Shown piece after piece: positions 51,701 through 64,000 of a DNA stretch of 64,000 nucleotides. A program made the translations under genes and the position numbers. Each line of letters opens with the position of its first letter. The stretch's first letter is position 1. The notes beneath the pieces are model-generated. The model saw only the letters and a list, made by a program, of their open reading frames with translations, searched no databases and had not been told where the DNA came from. Origin of the DNA: Bacteroidota bacterium (GTDB lineage Bacteria > Bacteroidota > Bacteroidia > UBA4408); the NCBI GenBank assembly GCA_963169745.1, contig CAUJCU010000002.1, positions 124,001-188,000 on the forward strand, written 5' to 3'.

Positions 51701-52111
51701 TTTTTTTGAAACTACCTTTTCTGATAGTGCATGGGGATAAGTAACAACAACAGCGCTTTTATGTTTTGCAGTTAGAAAATTAAGTACTTCGGAACGAAAC
51801 AATATATTTGCATTATCTATTATTTCGGGCTCATAAGGCTTTTTGTAACTCATTGGAAAAAAAACAACATATTTATTTCCTAACAAGTTTTCTAAATCAT
51901 TAAGCACATAAGCCGCCTGTTCTTTATCAGGTAAAATAAAAACATGCCATCCGCCTATGTGTTGTAAAGTTGCCTCGGCAATAAAAGCTAAACTGCTTCC
52001 CGAAATCCCTTTCAACTGAGCTTTCCCGGTACTATTTTGTTTTAAAAAATCAGCTAATTCAACAACTTGAGAGCTGTTGTAATATTTTTGCCTTATGGCA
52101 TTAATGTCCAT
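48725..52111 (-). CDS. mfd: Transcription-repair coupling factor
   Basis: 1128 residues from the ATG at 52111; a GTG three codons upstream also fits. The UvrB-like N-terminal part, the RNA-polymerase-interacting domain (about 470-540: K-P-G-D-F-V-T-H-I-D-H-G-I-G-R-F) and the RecG-like translocase with Walker A G-D-V-G-F-G-K-T, D-E-E-Q and the TRG-type R-G-R-V-G-R-S are all present, with the C-terminal D7 region at the end. It removes stalled RNA polymerase and recruits excision repair. Confidence 0.96.
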   Translation of the reverse strand: MDINAIRQKYYNSSQVVELADFLKQNSTGKAQLKGISGSSLAFIAEATLQHIGGWHVFILPDKEQAAYVLNDLENLLGNKYVVFFPMSYKKPYEPEIIDNANILFRSEVLNFLTAKHKSAVVVTYPHALSEKVVSKKHLSANTFNLKCTEKVDINFMFSFLEEYEFNRVDFVTQPGEYSVRGGIIDVFSFSNDYPYRIEFFDTEVESLRSFDIETQLSIKHYDFIQIIPDVSRKLLVESRSSFFDFIPNGSTIWINHTNFSSDVIQKTFEAAQVAHHKAEQGIIKQLNPEELFLDKHYFYQDLLRFNCIEFGNNNTYSAQKSIEFNIFPQPSFNKNMEMLIGHLKQNEEKEINNVLFSDSKKQNERLLSIIEDTTKINQIRYSAETLNTVIQAFSEGFEDKDLKIACFTDHQIFNRYHRFRLKDQFKSKSEAITLKELQSLKPGDFVTHIDHGIGRFAGLEKIEVNGKQQEAIRLVYRDNDILYINIQSLHRIARYSGQEGTLPKLNKLGSNTWNTLKQKTKVKVKQIAYDLIKLYAKRKAQKGFEFSPDNYLQTELEASFVYEDTPDQVKSTAAVKKDMEAPFPMDRLICGDVGFGKTEIAIRAAFKAVCDNKQVVVLVPTTILALQHYKTFKERLKDFPCTVDYINRFKSSKEQKETIQKLSEGKIDILIGTHRIVAKDIKFKDLGLMIVDEEQKFGVAVKDKLKTLKANIDTLTLTATPIPRTLQFSMMGARDLSVIVTPPPNRYPVQTELHPFNEEIIRDAISFEIARGGQVFFVHNRVQNIHEVSGMIQRLCPDVRVACAHGQMDGDKLELTMMDFIDGQFDVLVATTIIEAGLDISNANTIIINGAHLFGLSDLHQMRGRVGRSNRKAFCYLLAPPLSVLTPEARKRLKAIEEFADLGSGFNIALRDLDIRGAGNLLGAEQSGFISEIGFETYMKILNEAIEELKETEFKDLYEDTSGVQQMMHKVSGRSFVRDCQIDTDMEILFTDEYISNITERMSLYKELDDLESEEQLQLFEKNLIDRFGPLPQEAQELLNAIRLRWVAEDIGFEKVVLKKNKMIGYFIAKQDSPFYESPAFNRIIEFVKQNTNKVQLKETSGNKLTLIFDQVSSLKDALKAGKQITG

Positions 52112-52158
52112 TCGTTGCACTCCTTCTGCTCAATTTCTGAATTTAGTTTTGAGTCTCG

Positions 52159-52166
52159 CAAAAATA
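52159..52166 (-). promoter_or_regulatory. -7 box TAttTTTG of mfd
   Basis: Exact consensus on the minus strand with a TTTG 22 bp upstream as -33. The -33 element lies just before the phoH stop codon region. Leader of about 44 nt to the ATG. Confidence 0.55.
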
Positions 52167-52193
52167 ATAAATTATCAGCTACTCCATACAAAT

Positions 52194-53528
52194 TTAAAGC
52201 ATTAAACTGGCAACATTAGCCAGTTCCGAACGCTCCCCTTTTTCTAAGGTCATGTGGGCATACAGTGGATGATTTTTCATTTTATCAATAAGATAAGACA
52301 AGCCATTACTATGTGTATCCAAATATGGAGTATCTATTTGGAAAATATCTCCTGTAAAAATAATCTTGGTATTTTCTCCGGCACGGGTAATAATCGTTTT
52401 TACTTCATGCGGAGTAAGGTTCTGCGCTTCATCAACAATAAAAACAATATTGCTTAAACTACGCCCTCTAATATAGGCCAATGGTGTAATATGTATCTTT
52501 TCCTTTTCCACCATTTCCCTTATTTTTTGATGTTCTTTATCTGTTTCTTTAAATTGATTTTGAATGAGTTTAAGGTTATCCCATAAAGGTTCCATATAAG
52601 GATTAATTTTAGCTTTAATATCACCTGGTAAAAAGCCAATATCTTTATTACTTAAGGGAACTATTGGGCGCGCCAAGTATATTTGGTGGAAGTTTTGTTT
52701 TTGAGCCATAGCTCCGGCCAGTGCCAACAAGGTTTTTCCGGTGCCTGCAATTCCTTGAATTGTAACGAGCAGTACTTTAGGGTTCATGACAGCATGTAAG
52801 GCAAAAGTTTGCTCTACGTTTCGTGGTTTAATTCCGTAAGCATTTTCTTTGTTTACACGCTCTAATTGCCCTGTTCCATGATTATAATAGGCCAATGTTG
52901 AAGCATCGCCATTGCGCAAAATGTAATAGTGGTTGGCAATAGCATTTTTTAATTTGGCCTCCTTTAGGGAGCAAAACCCCGTAGTGTACATCTTGGTGAT
53001 AACCGTTTGTGACACTTCTAAATAGGTATTTCCTTTATAGAGCTGATCAATATTTTTGACCTTACCTGTTTCATAATCTTCGGCAATAATATTTAAGGAT
53101 CGTGCTTTTAATCGTAAGTTAATATCTTTAGAAACCAAAACTACTGTACTTTCTGGCCTATCTTCTGCAAGTTGTAAAGCAGCATTTAAAATATTGTGAT
53201 CGGCCTTTTTCTCACCAAAAATAAAATTGGTATCAACTTTGCTTTTTTCATTCATCTGCACCTTAAATTTTCCTTTTCCGGGGCCGTTAATAGGAAGCCA
53301 ATCTTGCAAAGAGTTGCTTTGTGATAAATGGTCGAGCATACGAATAAACTCACGTGCTTCAAAATTTATAACATCATTCCCTTTTTTAAAGCGGTCAACT
53401 TCTTCCAAAACTGTAATAGGTATTGCCACATCATGTTCGGCAAAATTTTTAATTGATTTGTGGTCGTATAGCAACACAGATGTGTCCAGCACAAATACTT
53501 TTTTTTCTTTCTTTTTAGCCATTGCCAT
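52194..53528 (-). CDS. PhoH family ATPase with N-terminal PIN domain (PhoH2 type)
   Basis: 444 residues. A PIN RNase domain (about 10-150; V-L-D15-T-S at its first acidic residue) is fused to a PhoH ATPase domain with Walker A G-I-A-G-T-G-K-T at 259-266 and Walker B F-I-V-D-E-A near 370. PIN-PhoH proteins unwind and cut RNA. The lysine-rich start (MAMAKKKEKK) is normal for the group. It stops 74 bp before the mfd gene start on the same strand. Confidence 0.93.
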   Translation of the reverse strand: MAMAKKKEKKVFVLDTSVLLYDHKSIKNFAEHDVAIPITVLEEVDRFKKGNDVINFEAREFIRMLDHLSQSNSLQDWLPINGPGKGKFKVQMNEKSKVDTNFIFGEKKADHNILNAALQLAEDRPESTVVLVSKDINLRLKARSLNIIAEDYETGKVKNIDQLYKGNTYLEVSQTVITKMYTTGFCSLKEAKLKNAIANHYYILRNGDASTLAYYNHGTGQLERVNKENAYGIKPRNVEQTFALHAVMNPKVLLVTIQGIAGTGKTLLALAGAMAQKQNFHQIYLARPIVPLSNKDIGFLPGDIKAKINPYMEPLWDNLKLIQNQFKETDKEHQKIREMVEKEKIHITPLAYIRGRSLSNIVFIVDEAQNLTPHEVKTIITRAGENTKIIFTGDIFQIDTPYLDTHSNGLSYLIDKMKNHPLYAHMTLEKGERSELANVASLML

Positions 53529-53707
53529 GTTTTTTTTAAAATGGTTGGTAGAATATTTTTAAAGAGCACGATAAACTTATTTTTTTCTTGTGCAGGTTGT
53601 TATATTCTATTCAGGAAGTTTTAAACAGATTTATTCACTATTCCATTTTGGAGTACGATAGTGTTCTAAAAAATCAATGTGCTTAAACAGGCGTATAATA
53701 ATCGATA

Positions 53708-54673
53708 CTACATTTTTTGATACTCCCATTTGGGATTTCCTTTTACCCCCGATTGGTTGTAAAAATCAATGAAATGAAGTTTGTAATAAAGTCCATGGCT
53801 GTCCTTTATAATATAAACAATGCGTGGATTAGTAACGTAGGTGCCGTTATCGTATTTTTTCCAATTATAGCCAATGGAATTAACGGCAGAGGTAAAAGTA
53901 TAATCTGATATGTTTTCAAAATTTATTGCTGCGAATGACTTTGATGAATCGCTACAGGCTGATGTTTGAAATTTGTTCAACAAGCAACCCGAAACAAGAT
54001 ATGGTTCAATGGGGTTATTAAAAACATGAGTATATTGGCTAAAAACCAAATCCCATGTATCTTTTGGAGGTTCAACCAAAACAGTTTTAGAATTTTTTAA
54101 GGACAAAAAGGTATAGTTGCAGGTATTATCTTTTATAATTTGCATTGTTGTATCATTTGTTCCATTAATTTTAGAGAAGCGTAGCGTATAAGAGTAATTA
54201 TCAACAGCTAAAAATTGCACCTTATAAAATCCTTGCTGTACTCCGGTTTCACTATAGCCACCATCAACAATATACACTGCTTTATGGTCTTGCCAATAGC
54301 CAATGGCCGTTGAGTCATAATCACCTGAAGGGGCATCCCACCTACGGCCGGGTGAAAAGCCATTGGTATCTACAACTTCTTCAAAAACAGTTTTACCGGT
54401 ATTATAAACGAACATAAATTTGGCTTGATTTAAAATGATATGCCAGCCTTGTGGTCCGGTTTCGAAACCCAAATCCCAAATTGTTTTTAAATTTTGACCA
54501 ACTACCGTGTTTGTTTTTAGGTTATAATAAATTTGCCACTTGTACGTTGCATCTATATTTACTGTTTGTGCTGTTACGTCTCCCGGATCATGCTTAGAAA
54601 CAGGCAATTCTCCTTTATCACAAGAGGTTAACAAAAACAACAGAATTATGCTCAAAAAAACAACCTGTTTCAT
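53708..54673 (-). CDS. HmuY-like haem-binding lipoprotein
   Basis: 321 residues. The lipobox L-L-T-S-C puts Cys18 as anchor with Asp at +2. The mature part has the HmuY-family features T-I-W-D-L-G-F-E and W-D-L-V-F-S-Q-Y-T, followed by P-Y-L-V-S-G-C-L-L-N and I-G-Y-N-W-K. HmuY captures haem at the surface and gives it to the TonB receptor HmuR. The haem ligands (His or Met) cannot be set without a structure. Its start is 1 bp past the receptor gene stop, so the two are coupled. Confidence 0.85.
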   Translation of the reverse strand: MKQVVFLSIILLFLLTSCDKGELPVSKHDPGDVTAQTVNIDATYKWQIYYNLKTNTVVGQNLKTIWDLGFETGPQGWHIILNQAKFMFVYNTGKTVFEEVVDTNGFSPGRRWDAPSGDYDSTAIGYWQDHKAVYIVDGGYSETGVQQGFYKVQFLAVDNYSYTLRFSKINGTNDTTMQIIKDNTCNYTFLSLKNSKTVLVEPPKDTWDLVFSQYTHVFNNPIEPYLVSGCLLNKFQTSACSDSSKSFAAINFENISDYTFTSAVNSIGYNWKKYDNGTYVTNPRIVYIIKDSHGLYYKLHFIDFYNQSGVKGNPKWEYQKM

Positions 54674-54674
54674 T

Positions 54675-56948
54675 TTAGTTTTTTGAATTTATATTTATCG
54701 TTATTTTAAAAAAATAACTGCGGCCCATACCAACTGCCATTGTATTACTTGAAGCCGTATGAGCTGCGCCAGAAGCAATTCCTCGAATATTCTTAACATC
54801 AAATAAATTTTTTGCCCCTGCAGTAAGTATAATACTTTTTTTAATAAACGCTCTGCTTAGTGTAGCATCAGCCGAGTGATAATCTTGTACTTGAATTTTA
54901 TAAAGTTCGTCATTTTCATTTAACGCATAAGCTGCCAGTTTTCCTGTATATTTATAGAATAGGGCAAAGGTCATGTTTTGGCTGTGCCATTCGTAAAAAA
55001 TATTACAACGGGCTTCAGGAGAGTATTCAAAACCATCAGGACTTTTTTTATTGCCCATTTGATTATATCGGCCAATATAAGCTGCTCCGGTTGCTATTTT
55101 AAAATGTTTTATAGCGAATTCATTTTGCAACTGCAAGCCACGAGTTTCATATTTATCTATATTAAAATAAGTATATTGAGTGCCTGATGCTTGTGCTAAT
55201 GCAATCATACTATGAATATAATTGTAAAAAATACTTAAATCAAGCTTTGATACTCTTTGGCTTTTTGTTTTATTTAAACTGATACTTAAATTGTAATTAT
55301 CTGATTGTTCTGCTTTAAGATTTTGATTTCCTGTAATGTTATGGTTGATATCTACAAAATAAAAATAAAGTTCCTTTAGCGAAGGAGATCGAAATCCGCG
55401 TGCATAGGAAAATCGGAATGCCAATGAAGAATTACTTTCTGTACCTATTGGCACATCATATTTTATGTTTAATGAAGGAACTACTGGTGCTTTATAAGAT
55501 GTATTGTAGGTAGCACGCAAACCTGGCCTAAAAGTTAAGAAAGTAAAAGGCTTATATTCGGCACTTCCAAATAATGCATAATCGCCAATAACTTGCTCCA
55601 TATCTTTAATGCGTAGTCCTCGAGCTGTTTCTTGGTTAACATCATACCCCAATTCGTAATTTATCTTAACCGAGTCTCTAGTGCTGCTAATGCTTCCCCT
55701 GGTCATCAGCGTGTTAAACAAACTCGTATCTTGATCGTCAGCATTTTCAGTGAGTACCTGCTCCAATGTTGTTAAATCTTTGAAGTAAGTACTTTTTATT
55801 CTTTCATAATGATTATAGGCTGCTGTAAAATTTAGGTAGTAGTACTTTGACAATTTCCCGTTAAGATTTAAGGTATTGTTCATTCGTTTAGTAGTGTAAT
55901 AATCATCAAGTGCTGTTTCAAAATAAGGTAAGCGAGGTAAACCCCTATTTGTAATTTTCTCAAAAAAATAATCGGCTGCATAGCCCAATTTAAGTTCGTT
56001 AAAAAAGTGGCTATAATATAAGGTACCAAACAATTGTTCTTTAGGCTTCCAGTTTTTATAACGCAAGCTATCGGCTACACGTACTTTTTCTAATTGAAAA
56101 TGTTTTTCATCGGGCCGCCACCCATCAAAGTAATTACGTCCACCGCTTACAGTAATTAAATTTTTCTTATGCTTATATCCTGCTTTACCGCTAAAATTAT
56201 ACTGTCCTATACTCTCGTAATAATTATCCGAAACAAATGAAAGGTTTTGCTTCTGAGATTTTTTAGTTATAATATTTATAGTTCCACCTAAGGCATCAGT
56301 TCCATAATTTACAGACAGTGGTCCTTCTATAATTTCAATACGTTCTACATTGTTCATATTTATTTGAGACAAATCAATATTCCCATTCATACGTCCTGTT
56401 ACCGGCACTCCGTCCAATAAAATCTTTACATTTTGGCCTGAGATGCCTTGCAAACTCATGCTGCTTCCCAAAATATTATCTTGAGAAAGTCTGATGTTTA
56501 GTTCATTGCTTAATACATCATGCAAATTAACAGCTCCAATTGCTTCTATTTTTTTGGAGTCAATAACTTTAATTTTATGAACTGCCTTCTCAGAACTGTT
56601 TGGGGCATATTGAGCAGTAACTACTAACTCATTTAAAATTGTTTTTTCAGGAGCTAACAAATAGGTTTTAGAAGTAAGTCCATTTAATGTATCTGTTAGT
56701 TTCTTAAACCCTATAAATGAAAGCGATAATAAATATTTACCATTTAAATTTTCAAATCCTGATAATTGAGCTTTCCCTTTATCATCCGTCAAAAAGAGTT
56801 TCTCTTCTCCATGTTCTACATCTTTTATAAGTATATGTGCAGCGGGTATAGGTTGTTTATCTTCGACATTTAGAACAGTAATAGTTTGACTTCTTATTAC
56901 TGTTGTCTGTAAAATGAAAAGAATAATTATGAAAAAACTTTTATGCAT
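54675..56948 (-). CDS. TonB-dependent receptor, HmuR-like
   Basis: 757 residues. Signal peptide, a carboxypeptidase-regulatory-like N-terminal domain (about 22-110), a plug domain with L-L-D-G-V-P-V-T-G and Y-G-T-D-A-L-G-G-T-I-N-I-I-T near 215, then a 22-strand barrel to the C-terminus ending in aromatic residues. The position beside HmuY proteins points to haem or another tetrapyrrole as substrate, with TonB providing energy. Co-transcribed with PepSY, chelatase and HmuY genes. Confidence 0.92.
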   Translation of the reverse strand: MHKSFFIIILFILQTTVIRSQTITVLNVEDKQPIPAAHILIKDVEHGEEKLFLTDDKGKAQLSGFENLNGKYLLSLSFIGFKKLTDTLNGLTSKTYLLAPEKTILNELVVTAQYAPNSSEKAVHKIKVIDSKKIEAIGAVNLHDVLSNELNIRLSQDNILGSSMSLQGISGQNVKILLDGVPVTGRMNGNIDLSQINMNNVERIEIIEGPLSVNYGTDALGGTINIITKKSQKQNLSFVSDNYYESIGQYNFSGKAGYKHKKNLITVSGGRNYFDGWRPDEKHFQLEKVRVADSLRYKNWKPKEQLFGTLYYSHFFNELKLGYAADYFFEKITNRGLPRLPYFETALDDYYTTKRMNNTLNLNGKLSKYYYLNFTAAYNHYERIKSTYFKDLTTLEQVLTENADDQDTSLFNTLMTRGSISSTRDSVKINYELGYDVNQETARGLRIKDMEQVIGDYALFGSAEYKPFTFLTFRPGLRATYNTSYKAPVVPSLNIKYDVPIGTESNSSLAFRFSYARGFRSPSLKELYFYFVDINHNITGNQNLKAEQSDNYNLSISLNKTKSQRVSKLDLSIFYNYIHSMIALAQASGTQYTYFNIDKYETRGLQLQNEFAIKHFKIATGAAYIGRYNQMGNKKSPDGFEYSPEARCNIFYEWHSQNMTFALFYKYTGKLAAYALNENDELYKIQVQDYHSADATLSRAFIKKSIILTAGAKNLFDVKNIRGIASGAAHTASSNTMAVGMGRSYFFKITININSKN

Positions 56949-56986
56949 CTAAATTTTACTTGTACCTGTATTTTTTCATTCACAAT

Positions 56987-57559
56987 TTAAAGCCATGCTT
57001 GAATAACAATAGCAACCACCGGTGGAATAAAACCTGCTGTAATGAGCCACTTTCCTCGACCGGTAATTCCATGCTTACCCTTTAGAATAAATAAACCGGT
57101 AAGATTAATCACAATCAGCATTACTGCAAAAACATCTGAAGCCCATTTCCAGCCCTTTAAACTATTTCGATGTAGTACATTAGATTGATAAAAAACAGGA
57201 CGCTTGGATACACTTTCGTAAACCGCCTCTCCCTTATCTAAATACACATGCAGTGAAGCATCTTTGTAGTAAATCTTAACCTGATTGGAAGTAGGGAAAT
57301 CATAAATTTTATAGTTATCTTCTCCTACGCGCTTACTCCATTCGGTTATCACACTATTGTTTACATCTATAAGCTTGAAAGTTTTTTCTATAGAAATTGT
57401 CTTTTTGTTTAAAATAAAATCGGGATTCCAATCATCAACATGGTTTAGCGCTATACCTGAAATGCAATAGACTAAGACTAATGATGAGAAAAAGTACCCC
57501 AAATCACGATGTGTGGCAATATTCAGTCTTCGTAATTTTTTTAAATTAAGTCCCAACAT
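56987..57559 (-). CDS. PepSY-TM family membrane protein
   Basis: 190 residues. Helix 1 (about 18-38, H-R-D-L-G-Y-F-F-S-S) with a His just before it and N-H just after, an extracytoplasmic PepSY-like part, then two helices near 140-160 and 170-190 with L-H-R-N-S and K-H-G-I-T-G-R-G. The His set resembles PepSY-TM proteins, some of which carry haem b and reduce iron in siderophores or haem on the periplasmic side. That role fits the operon but is inferred. It starts 2 bp after the chelatase gene. Confidence 0.8.
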   Translation of the reverse strand: MLGLNLKKLRRLNIATHRDLGYFFSSLVLVYCISGIALNHVDDWNPDFILNKKTISIEKTFKLIDVNNSVITEWSKRVGEDNYKIYDFPTSNQVKIYYKDASLHVYLDKGEAVYESVSKRPVFYQSNVLHRNSLKGWKWASDVFAVMLIVINLTGLFILKGKHGITGRGKWLITAGFIPPVVAIVIQAWL

Positions 57560-57561
57560 GA

Positions 57562-58521
57562 CTATCCGTTATTTTTTCCTCCCTTTATTTTATCAACATA
57601 ACCCGATGTTACATCTATTATCCATTGATCTACATGATTATCAGGTAAAATAGCATCGGGGCGATAGGTTACTTTTTCTTTATTGTTTTTAACCTTAGCT
57701 ATACCATCGCCAATTATTCTTACTTGGAATTCTTCATCATGGGCAACTAGTACCGGAATTACCACTGCATGTTTTTTGTTTTTCAACACTTGATTAATGG
57801 CATCGGTAGTTTTTTGAGGATCATAATGAGCAATATGACCACACCATCCGTATGAATGTTCGCTTATTCCTTGCTCCTGTTTCACATATTCTCCTACCTG
57901 GTTAAACAAATCTCCCCATTCTTTATCATAGGTTTCATCGCCATAACCTATAAGCACTAATCCTTCATTACTTGGGTCTTTAGAGATTTCTTTGACTCTT
58001 CGAGCAACATTTTTCTTTAAGATATCTGTAAAGTCTAAGTTAGGTGTTATATACGTTTTAGCTTTAGGTGTATAGCGTTCAATTTTTTCTATCTTAAGCA
58101 TTTCTTTAGAGTGTGGATCTTCTTTTTGTCCAATAATAGTAGGTATATCTTCAAATGTATGTGGACTTACCGTTAAAAAAACCGGAACCACAATAATATC
58201 GGTGTACCCTTCAGCATCAAACTCTTTTAAACGTGTAGCAATTGACGGCTCGGTATATTCCATATGAGCAGTTTTAATACCTTGTATCTGACCGTCTTTC
58301 ATAATTTCTGGCTGAACGCTTTTTTCTAAATCCATTAATGCTTTACGCCAAGTTTCAGAGCGTGAACCATGGTTTACAAGCAATACCCCTATTTTATGAC
58401 TAGCAGAAGCAGTTGGATCCTGAGGGATATTTTCTTTCTTGTTTTGACATGATTGCAAAACAAATAGGCTATTAAAGATGAATGAAATGAGGAGAATAGA
58501 TTTGATAGTTCTGAGTTTCAT
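57562..58521 (-). CDS. Lipoprotein-type double CbiX/CbiK-like chelatase
   Basis: 319 residues. A hydrophobic start ends in V-L-Q-S-C with Cys25 as likely lipid anchor. Then come two CbiX-like halves: the first with V-N-H51-G-S-R and V-P-V-F-L-T-V-S-P-H121-T-F-E-D-I-P, matching the two metal-binding His of sirohydrochlorin cobaltochelatases; the second with I-P-V-L-V-A-H-D-E-E-F but G-Y-G in place of H-G. It should sit in the periplasm or at the outer membrane and insert or remove metal from a tetrapyrrole. Its place in a haem operon suggests demetallation or metal exchange, which is inference. Confidence 0.83.
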   Translation of the reverse strand: MKLRTIKSILLISFIFNSLFVLQSCQNKKENIPQDPTASASHKIGVLLVNHGSRSETWRKALMDLEKSVQPEIMKDGQIQGIKTAHMEYTEPSIATRLKEFDAEGYTDIIVVPVFLTVSPHTFEDIPTIIGQKEDPHSKEMLKIEKIERYTPKAKTYITPNLDFTDILKKNVARRVKEISKDPSNEGLVLIGYGDETYDKEWGDLFNQVGEYVKQEQGISEHSYGWCGHIAHYDPQKTTDAINQVLKNKKHAVVIPVLVAHDEEFQVRIIGDGIAKVKNNKEKVTYRPDAILPDNHVDQWIIDVTSGYVDKIKGGKNNG

Positions 58522-58559
58522 TAGAAAATTATTGTTGTGTATTTGATTTATTTATTACC

Positions 58560-59813
58560 TTATTCTATTATAAGCTTTTGTTGCAGCACCTGTCCATCAA
58601 CATACATTGAAATAATGTATAGACCTTGTTTTAAGCCTTGTGTAAGCAGCGTATGTTGATATAATCCGGATCCGGAATAAAGAGCTTCACTCAATACCAA
58701 TCTACCACTCATATCATTTATTGTATAGTAAGTGTTTTGATAGTTTTTGTCTATATTATAAATTAGGGTTACTTGATTGTTTTGAGTTGGATTAGGGTAA
58801 ATAGCCAAGCTAATTGATTGACTTTGGTTATATTCTAATATTCCGGCTGTGCTAAGCTTTTCTTTTGAAAAAATAAAGTTTCCGGTGCTACTGCCTCCAA
58901 AACCGGTAAATAATAGTTTCCAAATATCACCTGTTTTACTTTTTACAAAATAAACCGTGTCACTAACTAAGTTCCAACTCCCCCCGGCAAATGCTTTCCA
59001 GTCGCTTCCTATTTCATTAATAGGTGTTACAAAGGTATGAGCCGACCAATTGTTATAGCTTTGCGGGTTGCTTACATCATCAGCTTGAGCTACTCGAACC
59101 CCTTTATTTGATAAAACTCCGGCTACGGTATAGGGTGTTGGTATAAATGCGGTATATTGTGTAAATAATAAATCCCAATTTGCAGAGGCTACTGGTTCAC
59201 GATTAAGTTGAGTATTCGTTTGAATAGAAAAATAGCCAAAATTTTTGCCGCTATAAATTGAATTTTGAATTGATTGGATTTGCAAATTAGAACCATCTAA
59301 ATCGGCATACTGGAAATTATAACCCCCTCCGGCAATTTCCTTAATCCATAATTTTTTATAAACTCCGTTTGCTAATTTAATTACGAAAAGCGAGTCGCCA
59401 GTTATTATATGTGTAATAGGGTTATAAATACCCCATCCCACATCATTTGCATTGGTGGTTACCATATTTTGATCAAATGCTCCAAAAACCCATGAAGTAT
59501 CACTGTTGTACTGAGGAGTCCAGGCATTAATTCCAGTTGTGTCTAATCCAGCCCAACCTGAAGTATCGGCTAAAGGATAGGTCCATAACATAGTTCCAAT
59601 AATTGAGTTAATATGAATAGATGTACCAAAGCCACCAATTTCAAAAGCAATATCCCAATTATCTTTAGGAGCAGCACCCTGCTCGCCATTTTGAAGGCTA
59701 TACCATTTTTGATTGGCATAACCCGCACCTAATGAAACGGTATCAATTATTTGTTGTGCATTGATTGTTCCAATAGTCAACATAACCATAAAAAAAAGTA
59801 GTAGTTTTTTCAT
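58560..59813 (-). CDS. HmuY-like protein exported by T9SS
   Basis: 417 residues. Signal peptide (about 1-19), a HmuY-like domain (W-D-I-A-F-E, later W-D-L-L-F-T-Q-Y-T and P-Y-T-V-A-G-V-L-S-N, I-G-S-D-W-K), then a T9SS sorting domain from about 335 (L-A-I-Y-P-N-P-T-Q-N). The W-D-L-x-F-x-Q-Y-T block also occurs in the lipoprotein at 53708, so the two are paralogues. This one should be carried outside and attached or released, making it a candidate haemophore. First gene of the operon. No clear -7 box was found upstream on the minus strand. Confidence 0.83.
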   Translation of the reverse strand: MKKLLLFFMVMLTIGTINAQQIIDTVSLGAGYANQKWYSLQNGEQGAAPKDNWDIAFEIGGFGTSIHINSIIGTMLWTYPLADTSGWAGLDTTGINAWTPQYNSDTSWVFGAFDQNMVTTNANDVGWGIYNPITHIITGDSLFVIKLANGVYKKLWIKEIAGGGYNFQYADLDGSNLQIQSIQNSIYSGKNFGYFSIQTNTQLNREPVASANWDLLFTQYTAFIPTPYTVAGVLSNKGVRVAQADDVSNPQSYNNWSAHTFVTPINEIGSDWKAFAGGSWNLVSDTVYFVKSKTGDIWKLLFTGFGGSSTGNFIFSKEKLSTAGILEYNQSQSISLAIYPNPTQNNQVTLIYNIDKNYQNTYYTINDMSGRLVLSEALYSGSGLYQHTLLTQGLKQGLYIISMYVDGQVLQQKLIIE

Positions 59814-60075
59814 AATATTTCGTTTTTAATTCTTTGATTTATTTAGGACAACAAAGAACTTATTTAGAATTATTCAAAACAATACCCCAAATAAGGTATT
59901 TAGCTACAAAAATTGTCATTATCAGTTGCAACAAAGAATGTTTTATTAGAATTGAAAACCTGGGTATTTCATTATATTGCATCAATTTTGCAGTGCTTCC
60001 AGCTGTTAGAAAGTGTTAATAACATAACATAAAAATTTAATTATGAGTATGATTGCACATCGGCATATATAGCAA

Positions 60076-61461
60076 ATGACTTTATCAAAACATTTAATAC
60101 TGATTATATTATCCATAGCCCTTTCCAAGCTCTGTAAGGCAGATGTTTTTATTAAGTTAAGGGTTCCTGATTATCCTGAAAAGCCTATCAGAATATTAGC
60201 TTATGAAGACTATTTTACTCAAAAAGAAAAACAGTTAGCAAGCGGAATTACCGATAAAGAAGGGGTATTTAGCACACGTATTCCGGTAAATGAAATTCAA
60301 AAAATTATTATAAAAACAGAGCAAACTCGTACTTTTTTTTATGCCGAACCTGACTCAACATACCATTTAGAGATGGGACTAACAGATACTAATGCTGTTC
60401 AAACTATTGGAGTAGAAAACGTAGTAAGTATTTCATTTTTAAATTTAAATAAACATAGCTTAAATCAACGGATTATATATTTTGAAAAATTACTATCCGA
60501 TTTTTATGCCCAAAACAATGTTTATTTTGTGCAACCACGTATTTTACAAAAAGCTGTTTTAGACTTTAAAAAAAACGTGTTGCTCAAAGAGTTTGAGCAT
60601 GACCAAGCTTTTTTAAAGACCTATATAACCTATAGTATCGCTCCAATTGAAGAGGTCAGTTTTTCAAACCGAGTATATCAATTTAACACCTATTTTAGGG
60701 GACCTATTTTGTATAGTCATCCTTTGTATATACAGTATTTCAGAGCATTTTTCGCACAATACTTAAAACTTCTATCAGATAAAAGTACAGGTAATCTCAT
60801 TTATAACGCAATTAATAATTACCACAGCTATGAAGGAGCCATGGAAGGAATTTTGAAGAATGATACTTTATTAAAAAATGACACCCTTAGAGAACTTGTG
60901 CTTCTTTCGGGATTGCGCGAATGGTATTATTTAAAAGATTGTAATCGTAATCATATAGCTATGCTGATGAATTATATCTCATTAAAAGGGCTGAGCTCAC
61001 AAAACCGAATTATAGCTCGCAACCTGTTGGAAAATATAAATGTTTTGGAGCTTGGCAGTAGCGCTCCAGATTTTGAGTTGGGTAGTGCAAAGTTTAAAAA
61101 ACTATCTGATTTAAAAGGCTATTATTTGTACCTTAATTTTTGGGCTTTATGGGATGCAAATACACTTCAGGAATTAAAATACATTCAAAAATTAGAACAA
61201 AAATACGGCCATCGTGTTCAGTTCATCAGTATTGGAATAGGTGATGATATACAAGCTGAAAAAGCATATTTTGAAAAAAATAAATACCCCTGGATTTTAA
61301 TTTCAGATAAGAATAAGCCCATACGTGAAAAGTATAAAATTAAGAATATCCCCTATTATGTATTAATAGACAAAGATGGTGATATACTTTCGGGGAATGC
61401 ACCAGCTCCCAGTCAAAATATGGATAACTATTTTAAACAACTTATCCGAAAAAATAAATAG
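60076..61461 (+). CDS. TlpA-like thioredoxin-fold protein lacking CxxC
   Basis: 461 residues. A signal peptide (about 1-22), a DUF4369-like or similar N-terminal domain, a helical middle and a TlpA/thioredoxin-like end from about 330 (A-P-D-F-E-L-G ... Y-L-N-F-W-A). Where the active site W-C-x-x-C belongs the sequence reads W356-A-L-W-D360, so both cysteines are absent; the cis-Pro I-P-Y-Y is kept. It cannot do thiol-disulfide exchange and may be a binding or structural protein. Divergent from the haem operon. Confidence 0.8.
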   Translation: MTLSKHLILIILSIALSKLCKADVFIKLRVPDYPEKPIRILAYEDYFTQKEKQLASGITDKEGVFSTRIPVNEIQKIIIKTEQTRTFFYAEPDSTYHLEMGLTDTNAVQTIGVENVVSISFLNLNKHSLNQRIIYFEKLLSDFYAQNNVYFVQPRILQKAVLDFKKNVLLKEFEHDQAFLKTYITYSIAPIEEVSFSNRVYQFNTYFRGPILYSHPLYIQYFRAFFAQYLKLLSDKSTGNLIYNAINNYHSYEGAMEGILKNDTLLKNDTLRELVLLSGLREWYYLKDCNRNHIAMLMNYISLKGLSSQNRIIARNLLENINVLELGSSAPDFELGSAKFKKLSDLKGYYLYLNFWALWDANTLQELKYIQKLEQKYGHRVQFISIGIGDDIQAEKAYFEKNKYPWILISDKNKPIREKYKIKNIPYYVLIDKDGDILSGNAPAPSQNMDNYFKQLIRKNK

Positions 61462-61472
61462 TACTACTGGGG

Positions 61473-62102
61473 TTAAAGCGACTTAATAAAATTTTGAGTT
61501 AGTACCCCTCTAACCGAAGCAAATGTTTGGTTCAGGTTTTGAATTACATCATTAACAGACATCCAGCGTGCATCGGTAATTCCTTCTATGGTTTGAGGAA
61601 TTAAATCAGGTTCATTATCATGGCAGCGCATTAAATACCAGTGCGACACTTTAAGTATTTTTTTTTGGTCTAAAATATAGGTATGGTATGTTTTACCTAA
61701 TGAAGACTCAACTACAAGGTCTTTTACTCCGCACTCTTCAATAACCTCCCTAACAGCAGCCTCCTCGAGAGTTTCATTATTTTCTTTTTTTCCTTTGGGT
61801 AAGTCCCACATGCCATATCGGTGTATTAATAACGCATGTGAAGCTTTATTCAATACCAACCCTCCAGCCGCTTCAACAATGGTGTATAGAGATTGAAAGG
61901 CCTCCCAAACCTCTTCAGCTTGCTGACTGTAAACGTAAAGTGTTTCTACAGATGGAAGTGAGATTAAAGATTGGATTAGTGCTTCTAAAAGTGAAACATT
62001 GTCATATTCGGAATACAAAGTGTTATGGCCATTAAAATTGAATGTGGCTTCATCGGCTATAATCAGTTTCTTTTGCTCAAAGTAAATCGTGTAGTGTACC
62101 AT
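61473..62102 (-). CDS. Nudix hydrolase
   Basis: 209 residues from the ATG at 62102 (MVHYTIYFEQ); the frame can be extended six codons to a TTG without support. The Nudix box G-x5-E-x7-R-E-x2-E-E-x-G is complete (G-K-K-E-N-N-E-T-L-E-E-A-A-V-R-E-V-I-E-E-C-G) with L-P-K-G just before. It cleaves nucleoside-diphosphate-linked compounds; an N-terminal extra domain of about 70 residues is unexplained. Convergent with the TlpA-like gene, divergent from pyrE. Confidence 0.92.
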   Translation of the reverse strand: MVHYTIYFEQKKLIIADEATFNFNGHNTLYSEYDNVSLLEALIQSLISLPSVETLYVYSQQAEEVWEAFQSLYTIVEAAGGLVLNKASHALLIHRYGMWDLPKGKKENNETLEEAAVREVIEECGVKDLVVESSLGKTYHTYILDQKKILKVSHWYLMRCHDNEPDLIPQTIEGITDARWMSVNDVIQNLNQTFASVRGVLTQNFIKSL

Positions 62103-62147
62103 TGTTTTGATTAAGAGCAAAATTAGTAAAATTTACTATGTAACACA

Positions 62148-62176
62148 TTTGTTTTACAAAAATTTATGTAGGTTTG
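62148..62176 (+). promoter_or_regulatory. Two-part promoter of pyrE (near-leaderless)
   Basis: TTTG (62148-62151) and the -7 box TAggTTTG (62169-62176) are 17 bp apart. The box ends 4 nt before the ATG at 62181, so the transcript should begin at or within one base of the start codon. Confidence 0.65.
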
Positions 62177-62180
62177 AGGC

Positions 62181-62822
62181 ATGGTTTTCGATTCAAAAAT
62201 AGCCGAACAAGCAGCTCAATATTTACTGGAAATTAGAGCTGTTAAATTACAGCCACATCAGCCTTTTACTTGGGCATCAGGATGGAAAAGCCCTGTATAT
62301 TGCGACAATCGGGTTTCTTTATCTTATCCGCATATCCGTCAATTTTTTGCTGAAAGTTTTGCCTCACTAACCCAAAAGCATTATTCTGAAGCAACACTTG
62401 TTGCCGGAGTTGCCACAGGAGCAATTGCACACGGTGTTTTAGTAGCCGAACAATTACAGCTTCCTTTTGCATACATACGGTCATCAGCTAAAGGACACGG
62501 TCTTGAAAACTTAATTGAAGGCAAAATTGATGCCGGTGATAAAGTGTTGGTTATTGAAGATCTAATTAGTACCGGAATGAGTAGCCTTAAGGCTGTTCAA
62601 GCTCTTGAAGAAAAGAAAATACACGTTTTGGGAATGGCTGCCATTTTTACCTATAATTTTGAAAAAGCACAACTTGCTTTTGAAGAAAAGAGATGTTCAT
62701 TAATTACCTTAACAGATTACAGCTTTCTTATTAATACAGCCTTAAAAACCGGTTATATCAATGCTGCTGATGTGGACTCCTTAAACCAATGGCGTATGAA
62801 TCCTGCCGAGTGGGGAAAATAA
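62181..62822 (+). CDS. pyrE: Orotate phosphoribosyltransferase
   Basis: 213 residues. The type I PRPP-binding loop V-L-V-I-E-D-L-I-S-T-G-M-S-S (about 121-134) and the N-terminal A-x-x-L-L-E-I-R-A-V family opening are present. It makes orotidine 5'-phosphate from orotate and PRPP. The next gene (SRPBCC protein) starts 31 bp later. The mRNA start is expected at or beside the ATG. An unlinked pyrG lies at 37798. Confidence 0.95.
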   Translation: MVFDSKIAEQAAQYLLEIRAVKLQPHQPFTWASGWKSPVYCDNRVSLSYPHIRQFFAESFASLTQKHYSEATLVAGVATGAIAHGVLVAEQLQLPFAYIRSSAKGHGLENLIEGKIDAGDKVLVIEDLISTGMSSLKAVQALEEKKIHVLGMAAIFTYNFEKAQLAFEEKRCSLITLTDYSFLINTALKTGYINAADVDSLNQWRMNPAEWGK

Positions 62823-62853
62823 TAAACTTTATATACTTATACTATAAATCATT

Positions 62854-63267
62854 ATGAGTCAAACCAAACTTCAATCATCACAAGTTGAGCTACACCAATC
62901 AAGCGAGCGTATTTATGATTTTTTATGCAATTTGAATAACTTTCAAAAATTAATGCCTCCTGAAATAAGTGATTGGAATAGCACAGAAACAGAGTGCTCC
63001 TTTACCTTAAAAGGGATGCCAACTATTGGTTTTATCTTATTTGAGAAAACACCGGTAAGTACCATTGTATATAAAGCAACCGGAAAAGTACCCAGTGATA
63101 TTTACTTAAGAGTGGCCTTGGAATCTGCTGCAGATAATGCATGTAAAGCCCAACTATTCTTGGAAGCAGAGCTTAATCCAATGCTAAAAATGATGGTAGA
63201 AAAACCACTTACAAAATTACTGGAAGTACTGGCAGCTAACCTTTCTAAGCTAAATCCTGAGGCATAA
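62854..63267 (+). CDS. SRPBCC (START-like) domain protein
   Basis: 137 residues. The opening V-E-L-H-Q-S-S-E-R-I-Y-D-F-L-C-N-L-N-N-F-Q-style pattern and the late long helix (M-L-K-M-M-V-E-K-P-L-T-K-L) are typical of the SRPBCC ligand-binding fold. The ligand is unknown. It lies 31 bp after pyrE and is probably co-transcribed with it; the exosortase-family gene follows with its own -7 box. Confidence 0.82.
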   Translation: MSQTKLQSSQVELHQSSERIYDFLCNLNNFQKLMPPEISDWNSTETECSFTLKGMPTIGFILFEKTPVSTIVYKATGKVPSDIYLRVALESAADNACKAQLFLEAELNPMLKMMVEKPLTKLLEVLAANLSKLNPEA

Positions 63268-63326
63268 GTTTCTTGTCTTTGGTCTATTCGGCAATCAAGG
63301 CTTTTTCTAAGTTGATAATTTAAGAC

Positions 63327-63334
63327 TAACTTTG
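63327..63334 (+). promoter_or_regulatory. -7 box TAacTTTG of exosortase-family gene
   Basis: Exact consensus 24 nt before the ATG at 63359, leader of about 21 nt. No good -33 element. Confidence 0.5.
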
Positions 63335-63358
63335 TAACTCAAACCTTTATACCCTATT

Positions 63359-63946
63359 ATGAGTACAAGTACTAACAAAGAAAAAACTTTATCTGAAATG
63401 GTTAAAAATCCTATGGTGCAGTTTATCATAAAAGCTGCTCTGGTTTATGCCCTGTGGGAAATTTTAAACTGGGTGCAGATGCATAATACTTCATTTGGTT
63501 CGGTGTGGATGACTTTACATAATGGTGTACGTGATAATATTGTAGTGGTTAGTTCATGGGTATTACGAACTTTACAGTATGACTTAATTCAATATGATAG
63601 TGTATTAATTATAAAAGGATCAGCAGGAGTTGATGTAGGGCCGGCTTGTGTGGGTTTTGGACTTTTGTTTGGCTTTGCAGGATTAATAATTAGCTATCAA
63701 GGTTCATGGAAATCAAAATTATGGTTTATTCCATTAGGATGGTTAGGCATTCATACTATTAATATTATTCGTATAGTTGTTTTAGCAATTATTTCTCATA
63801 TCAATAACGATTGGGTTGATTTCAATCACAAATATGTTTTTAACACCATAATTTACATTTTTATTTTTTTAATGTGGATGTGGTGGGTACGGTTTGTTGA
63901 GAATCAAGAAAAAAAGGACAGCTTGGTTCAACAAAAAAATAATTAA
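63359..63946 (+). CDS. Exosortase/archaeosortase family protein
   Basis: 195 residues, multi-helix membrane protein. The catalytic triad of the family is visible: C97 in G-P-A-C-V-G-F, R138 in N-I-I-R-I-V and H157 in N-H-K-Y-V-F-N. Members act as transpeptidases that cut and anchor proteins with a C-terminal tripartite sorting tag. In Bacteroidota short exosortases often work on tagged partners encoded nearby, but none is seen in this window. The asd gene starts 3 bp after the stop, so they are co-transcribed. The exact Xrt subtype is not determined. Confidence 0.9.
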   Translation: MSTSTNKEKTLSEMVKNPMVQFIIKAALVYALWEILNWVQMHNTSFGSVWMTLHNGVRDNIVVVSSWVLRTLQYDLIQYDSVLIIKGSAGVDVGPACVGFGLLFGFAGLIISYQGSWKSKLWFIPLGWLGIHTINIIRIVVLAIISHINNDWVDFNHKYVFNTIIYIFIFLMWMWWVRFVENQEKKDSLVQQKNN

Positions 63947-63949
63947 ATT

Positions 63950-64000
63950 ATGAAAGTAGCTGTTATTGGAGCCACCGGTTTGGTTGGCAACAAAATGATA
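63950..64000 (+). CDS. asd: Aspartate-semialdehyde dehydrogenase, 3' end outside window
   Basis: Only 17 codons are visible (MKVAVIGATGLVGNKMI). The G-A-T-G-x-V-G NADP-binding loop directly at the N-terminus and the following residues match aspartate-semialdehyde dehydrogenase, the second step of the lysine, threonine and methionine family; N-acetyl-glutamyl-phosphate reductase starts similarly and is the main alternative. It begins 3 bp after the exosortase-family gene. Confidence 0.7.
   Translation, partial: MKVAVIGATGLVGNKMI

Follow-up and report, generated by a model that had tools for sequence, protein, structure and literature searches.

Release of iron from haem with the ring left intact was disputed for years, and HmuS represents the first firm case. 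The HmuS haem de-chelatase is active under anaerobic conditions, with NADH required as its reductant (PMC12583661). This membrane-associated, CobN-like class I enzyme is encoded in the hmuYRSTUV locus together with HmuY and a haem-type TonB receptor. Class II chelatases such as SirB normally insert metal, and exported members of this class are already known, namely the Desulfovibrio vulgaris CbiK-P and the Porphyromonas gingivalis FetB and IhtB (Iht system), which we take to be the same protein. FetB/IhtB is a CbiK-like lipoprotein that is encoded with a TonB receptor and has been suspected of taking iron from haem (PMC10913741). It has also been reported to insert manganese into protoporphyrin, with its porphyrin products described as accumulating at the surface of the outer membrane (2026 review, PMC13402209). 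A further comparison is provided by the XusABC xenosiderophore system, in which a surface lipoprotein and a TonB receptor are combined with a PepSY protein that reduces ferric iron (PMC13142918). Additionally, T9SS and pepSY genes have been drawn earlier in atypical hmu clusters (PMC12106395).

Here we describe an operon of a Bacteroidota bacterium that shares parts with each of these systems. It lies in a 64,000-nucleotide stretch of DNA (the window) within a 2.99 Mb source genome that is 99.96% complete. A preliminary description made from the letters alone proposed a five-gene operon, and the positions and strand of the open reading frames together with their Pfam and NCBIfam domain matches bear this out: five reading frames occupy 53708-59813, all on the minus strand and 1-38 bp apart. 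The first gene (58560..59813) codes for a HmuY-like protein with a T9SS type A sorting tail (PF14064 at 5.9e-11; PF18962 and TIGR04183 over cut-off) that is likely an extracellular or surface haemophore. It is followed by genes for an exported class II chelatase of the SirB/CbiX_L type and predicted lipoprotein (57562..58521), a PepSY_TM_like_2 inner-membrane protein (56987..57559), a TonB-dependent receptor (54675..56948; PF00593, PF07715) and a HmuY-family lipoprotein (53708..54673; PF14064 at 3.4e-17), the last of which found no useful match in a sequence search of the PDB. There is no ABC transporter gene within the operon. The same gene set was found in other Bacteroidota, and its order is kept in more than 12 independent contigs, so the arrangement is not a product of chance.

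The chelatase matches the CbiX profile PF01903 at 59.4 bits (E=4.9e-16) against a cut-off of 22, and this match covers residues 51-138 only, which constitute the N-terminal half. The initial view of the protein as a double CbiX holds at the level of the fold, as the whole AlphaFold model (pLDDT 88.6, built from 57 relatives) superposes on Bacillus SirB with a Z of 19.8 over 244 residues, although Pfam detects the N-terminal half alone. Weaker structural matches are coproporphyrin ferrochelatase, Desulfovibrio CbiK-P (2xvx, Z 16.7; periplasmic according to its title) and Porphyromonas FetB (9b86, Z 16.5). In sequence the protein is closest to the sirohydrochlorin chelatases CfbA, SirB and CbiX. 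Residues H51, E88 and H121 are invariant in all 76 distinct chelatase sequences and correspond in the alignment to the metal-binding residues of CfbA and SirB (presumably H10, E43 and H76 in SirB), and they are likely the metal ligands of this enzyme. A W226-C227-G228-H229 stretch in the second half is likewise identical in 76/76. Because the ligand residues are invariant and the CbiK profile PF06180 has no match in the source genome at E 0.001, the predicted catalytic equipment is intact and belongs to the SirB/CbiX_L type instead of the CbiK type. The window protein thus shares an overall fold with FetB and CbiK-P but differs from both in type; CbiK-P is not known to have a HmuY or PepSY partner. 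It also shares the two-domain fold and equivalent metal ligands with SirB, yet SirB is a cytoplasmic biosynthetic enzyme whereas the window chelatase is exported and has a membrane redox protein as its partner.

Export is a general property of these chelatases. The window protein carries the lipobox VLQSC, and a leader that ends in a lipobox is common to its Bacteroidota homologues, while the Nitrospira homologues have a cleavable Sec-type leader. One or the other signal is present in every chelatase with a redox partner (71/71), a count that includes as exported, by virtue of their lipobox, two proteins that a crude rule had called unsignalled (one of them the window protein). A cytosolic, unlipidated chelatase was looked for as an alternative and was not borne out, and the partner-linked proteins consequently do not have the cytoplasmic location of enzymes of siroheme or B12 synthesis. 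A leader is entirely absent from five homologues, which come from Anaerolineae, Armatimonadota and Ignavibacteriales (L040, L042, L043, L046 and L060, the last included after its over-long start was corrected by eye). No residue is kept in the exported proteins but altered in these five at the 90% level, so the unsignalled group is not distinct at the active site. These five are 60-65% identical to the exported form and are nested among exported proteins on a midpoint-rooted tree. With regard to location outside the cytoplasm, acidic residues after the lipobox cysteine are a surface-export signal in Bacteroidota. Such residues follow the cysteine of the window HmuY lipoprotein, and at least two of them occur in the next six positions in 72% of the partner HmuY lipoproteins versus 14% of the chelatases. 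Given this difference in frequency, the HmuY lipoprotein probably sits outside while the chelatase probably faces the periplasm. Of the earlier placement in the periplasm or at the outer membrane, the location outside the cytoplasm therefore stands, but leader composition favours the periplasm over the cell surface, where the FetB-made porphyrins are said to accumulate.

The chelatase is consistently accompanied by a membrane protein of the redox kind. A PepSY gene is present within 2.5 kb of 64 of the 76 distinct chelatases, nearly always directly downstream, and in seven others, which form one clade, its slot is taken by a NosR-like protein with an FMN_bind domain and 4Fe-4S motifs that resembles NosR, NapH and RnfG. 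Both the PepSY and the NosR-like families move electrons through the inner membrane. Of the seven NosR-type operons, five retain the T9SS-HmuY, receptor and HmuY genes, indicating that the redox gene alone was exchanged. The five unsignalled chelatases have neither partner (5/5). Each of the two groups, NosR-type and unsignalled, corresponds to a single, fully supported change in the tree. The association of export with a partner gives a Fisher value of 6e-8 that overstates the link and is not taken as proof, since just two independent changes, the partner swap and the signal loss, underlie it. Judged from these gene neighbourhoods, the stable unit is a chelatase plus a membrane redox protein. 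Replacement by a NosR-like electron-transfer protein in one clade supports the early suggestion that PepSY supplies electrons, with electron flow itself being inferred. NosR-like proteins are found directly after the chelatase in, for example, L098:7244-8626, L122:9120-10505 and L124:9798-11210, and the one in L098 has, as read by eye, an SGATxT-like motif at which FMN may be covalently bound.

The PepSY protein of the window is a putative haem-type reductase that scores over cut-off with PF16357 (7.4e-16) and below it with PF03929. In the alignment of PepSY partners the membrane-proximal histidines H40 and H130 are invariant and H17 is near-invariant (at least 90%), and the invariant pair is what a bis-His haem would need. 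Neither its model nor its sequence gave a clear match to a solved reductase when compared with the PDB by Foldseek, VIA-align and a sequence profile. PepSY proteins have been linked to iron reduction (PMC8238504, PMC13142918), and PF16357 is counted among the PepSY-like electron-transfer systems with this link (PMC8238504).

Control of the operon looks iron-dependent and of the Fur type. A Fur-box-like palindrome, GTTTTGAATAATTCTAAAT on the coding strand (59862..59880), lies 48 bp before the first ATG and has 2 mismatches to ATTTAGAATNATTCTAAAT. The palindrome is close to the Riemerella Fur box ATTTAGAATTATTCTAAAT, a consensus with gel-shift support (PMC5609570), and is a predicted site. The window alone is weak evidence with two matches at up to 3 mismatches versus 0.41 expected. 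Across the source genome four places match at up to 2 mismatches and the reversed control gives zero; one of the four precedes the chelatase operon and another a suf operon (gene names read from sequence). Among related Bacteroidota operons, 20/34 have such a site within 300 bp compared with 0.008 expected per region from the same contigs, counts that are non-independent owing to shared ancestry, and in all seven NosR-type operons one lies at the operon start or close to it. There is no match to the cobalamin riboswitch RF00174 in 52000-64000 of the window at E up to 5. Thus the upstream site and the lack of a riboswitch at the operon argue for iron rather than cobalamin control. In several genomes a LuxR-type response regulator gene, itself preceded by a Fur-box-like site, is located directly upstream of the operon (L009:6871-7536, L122:6114-6773). 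A DUF6686-type small Cys-containing protein is also encoded in or near some operons (L019:10495-10824, L098:6927-7241, and as a 111 aa protein near the right end of L020 and L021, which come from the cultured Runella defluvii and R. limosa), and in Runella its gene has its own Fur-box-like site.

The cargo is suggested by the proteins that surround the chelatase. The HmuY family consists of haem binders, and a FRAP-type box, a His and an NPNL-type box together form a haem receptor pattern. This pattern is found in the window receptor as FRSPSLKELYFYFVDINHNITGNQNL and in most Bacteroidota receptors adjoining a chelatase, and the plug of the window receptor resembles BtuB. Chelatase neighbours in other phyla or in distant lineages include iron-dependent repressors, most of them with a FeoA domain, as well as flavodoxin, DUF3793, ferritin and ExbD, and the source genome has FeoAB. 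The source genome also has a HemH ferrochelatase, so haem is more likely an iron source than a cofactor that cannot be made. In Nitrospira, the receptor lacks the His in the FRAP/NPNL stretch and other small secreted proteins replace HmuY, indicating that cargo may vary. Outside Bacteroidota, genes for short secreted proteins precede those of the receptor and chelatase (L029:4616-5383, L048:5377-6090, L055:4178-4810); that of L048 has a PEP-CTERM tail, weaker in L055, and these proteins are possible haemophore analogues.

We consider it somewhat probable that the operon is a Fur-controlled haem-iron acquisition system with reductive iron release by the exported chelatase. Haem, or an iron-tetrapyrrole like it, would be captured by the two HmuY proteins, one secreted by the T9SS and the other a surface lipoprotein, and then passed to the TonB receptor for entry into the periplasm. 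There, PepSY would pass electrons across the inner membrane to reduce Fe(III)-haem, the lipid-anchored SirB-type chelatase acting in the removal direction would release Fe(II) and free porphyrin, and FeoAB would take up the Fe(II). Of these steps, we infer the haem substrate, the removal direction, the periplasmic face, the electron flow from PepSY to haem iron and, from conserved residues, catalysis itself. By analogy with HmuS, a class II enzyme working in reverse would be expected to need ferrous haem, and the PepSY or NosR-like pairing fits the proposal for this reason. Against it, class II enzymes normally insert metal and, with its own ferrochelatase present, the bacterium may not find haem scarce. 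The preliminary description set a CobN-like HmuS in Porphyromonas against a smaller chelatase here. PF02514 has no match in the source genome, and since no CobN/HmuS gene was found the unrelated smaller chelatase could well take the HmuS role; that contrast nevertheless overlooked FetB/IhtB of Porphyromonas. The Iht gene set differs in that its reported members include an ABC transporter but not a PepSY protein, and XusABC differs in being without a chelatase and in having a siderophore as its cargo (PMC13142918).

The fold and the intact ligand set match those of inserting enzymes, and the exported chelatase might instead insert or exchange another metal (Mn, Co, Fe or Zn) into captured free porphyrin, as reported for FetB (PMC13402209), whose structure resembles the model. 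We regard this as unlikely, however, as the conserved electron-transfer partner has no obvious use for divalent metals and the regulation resembles iron starvation. Slightly less likely again is a non-catalytic role, in which a periplasmic haem carrier or tetrapyrrole-binding protein of chelatase origin would present bound haem, or a siderophore, for reduction by PepSY. Chelatases do have the two-domain form of periplasmic binding proteins, and such proteins appear lower in the list of structural matches, but three SirB-type metal ligands without exception among the 76 sequences would be unusual for a mere carrier, and the operon does not encode an ABC transporter to receive the carried haem.

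Two further readings appear highly improbable. Salvage of corrinoids or sirohydrochlorin with cobalt chelation would suit the nearest sequences (CfbA, SirB, CbiX) and the BtuB-like receptor plug; this cobalt or cobalamin system is opposed by the HmuY partners, the Fur-like site and the location of the two cobalamin riboswitches of the source genome, both elsewhere and one of them before another TonB receptor. Copper acquisition has a precedent in the Bordetella CrtA/CrpH system, where TonB receptor and PepSY pairs import copper (PMC12914433, PMC13038864), and CopC/CopD-like (read by eye) and AmoB genes occur near Nitrospira loci. These copper genes probably belong with ammonia monooxygenase rather than with the chelatase, and a tetrapyrrole chelatase fold would be unexpected in a copper system; the Fur-box-like site, the HmuY proteins and neighbours such as an iron-dependent repressor, flavodoxin and ferritin also speak against copper.

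Returning to reductive release of haem iron, the chelatase is rare and patchy, being present in 10/395 genomes drawn from the phylum, 20/395 from the class, and 6/100 near relatives (including 2/4 genomes of the genus), and it occurs in five phyla (Bacteroidota, Chlorobiota, Nitrospirota, Planctomycetota and Verrucomicrobiota). Identity stays at 55-75% between distant taxa despite this patchiness, which suggests lateral spread. We give about even chances to a broader reading, in which an exported SirB-type chelatase and a transmembrane electron donor that can be exchanged (PepSY or a NosR-like protein of the flavin type) form a previously undescribed, laterally spread module for reductive periplasmic removal of iron from haem or iron-tetrapyrroles with the porphyrin left intact, a class II counterpart to HmuS that would be used by free-living members of five or more phyla, Nitrospira and green sulfur bacteria among them. 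Neither the pairing nor its distribution over several phyla seems to have been described: in the literature searched we found no paper joining a SirB-type chelatase or CbiX with PepSY, an absence that is not proof, and none on this module among work on CbiX in Nitrospira. If the broader reading is true, a small class II enzyme does the job of HmuS with a defined electron source, and environmental bacteria hitherto not regarded as haem users would be such users. The two naturally exchanged electron donors also offer a direct test of whether haem-iron reduction is the key step.

Several loci outside Bacteroidota have additional features. A long secreted CbiX-like paralogue (~560-660 aa) with weak motif conservation is encoded near the module in Nitrospira (L029:2508-4196, L034:4994-6763, L024 and others). 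At L024:9879-13098, a comammox-type Nitrospira locus, the chelatase-PepSY pair is ~1.3 kb from the gene for ammonia monooxygenase subunit B. In Chlorobiaceae (L041, L094, L101) there is a tandem chelatase-PepSY-chelatase arrangement, the two chelatases of which occupy separate positions on the tree.
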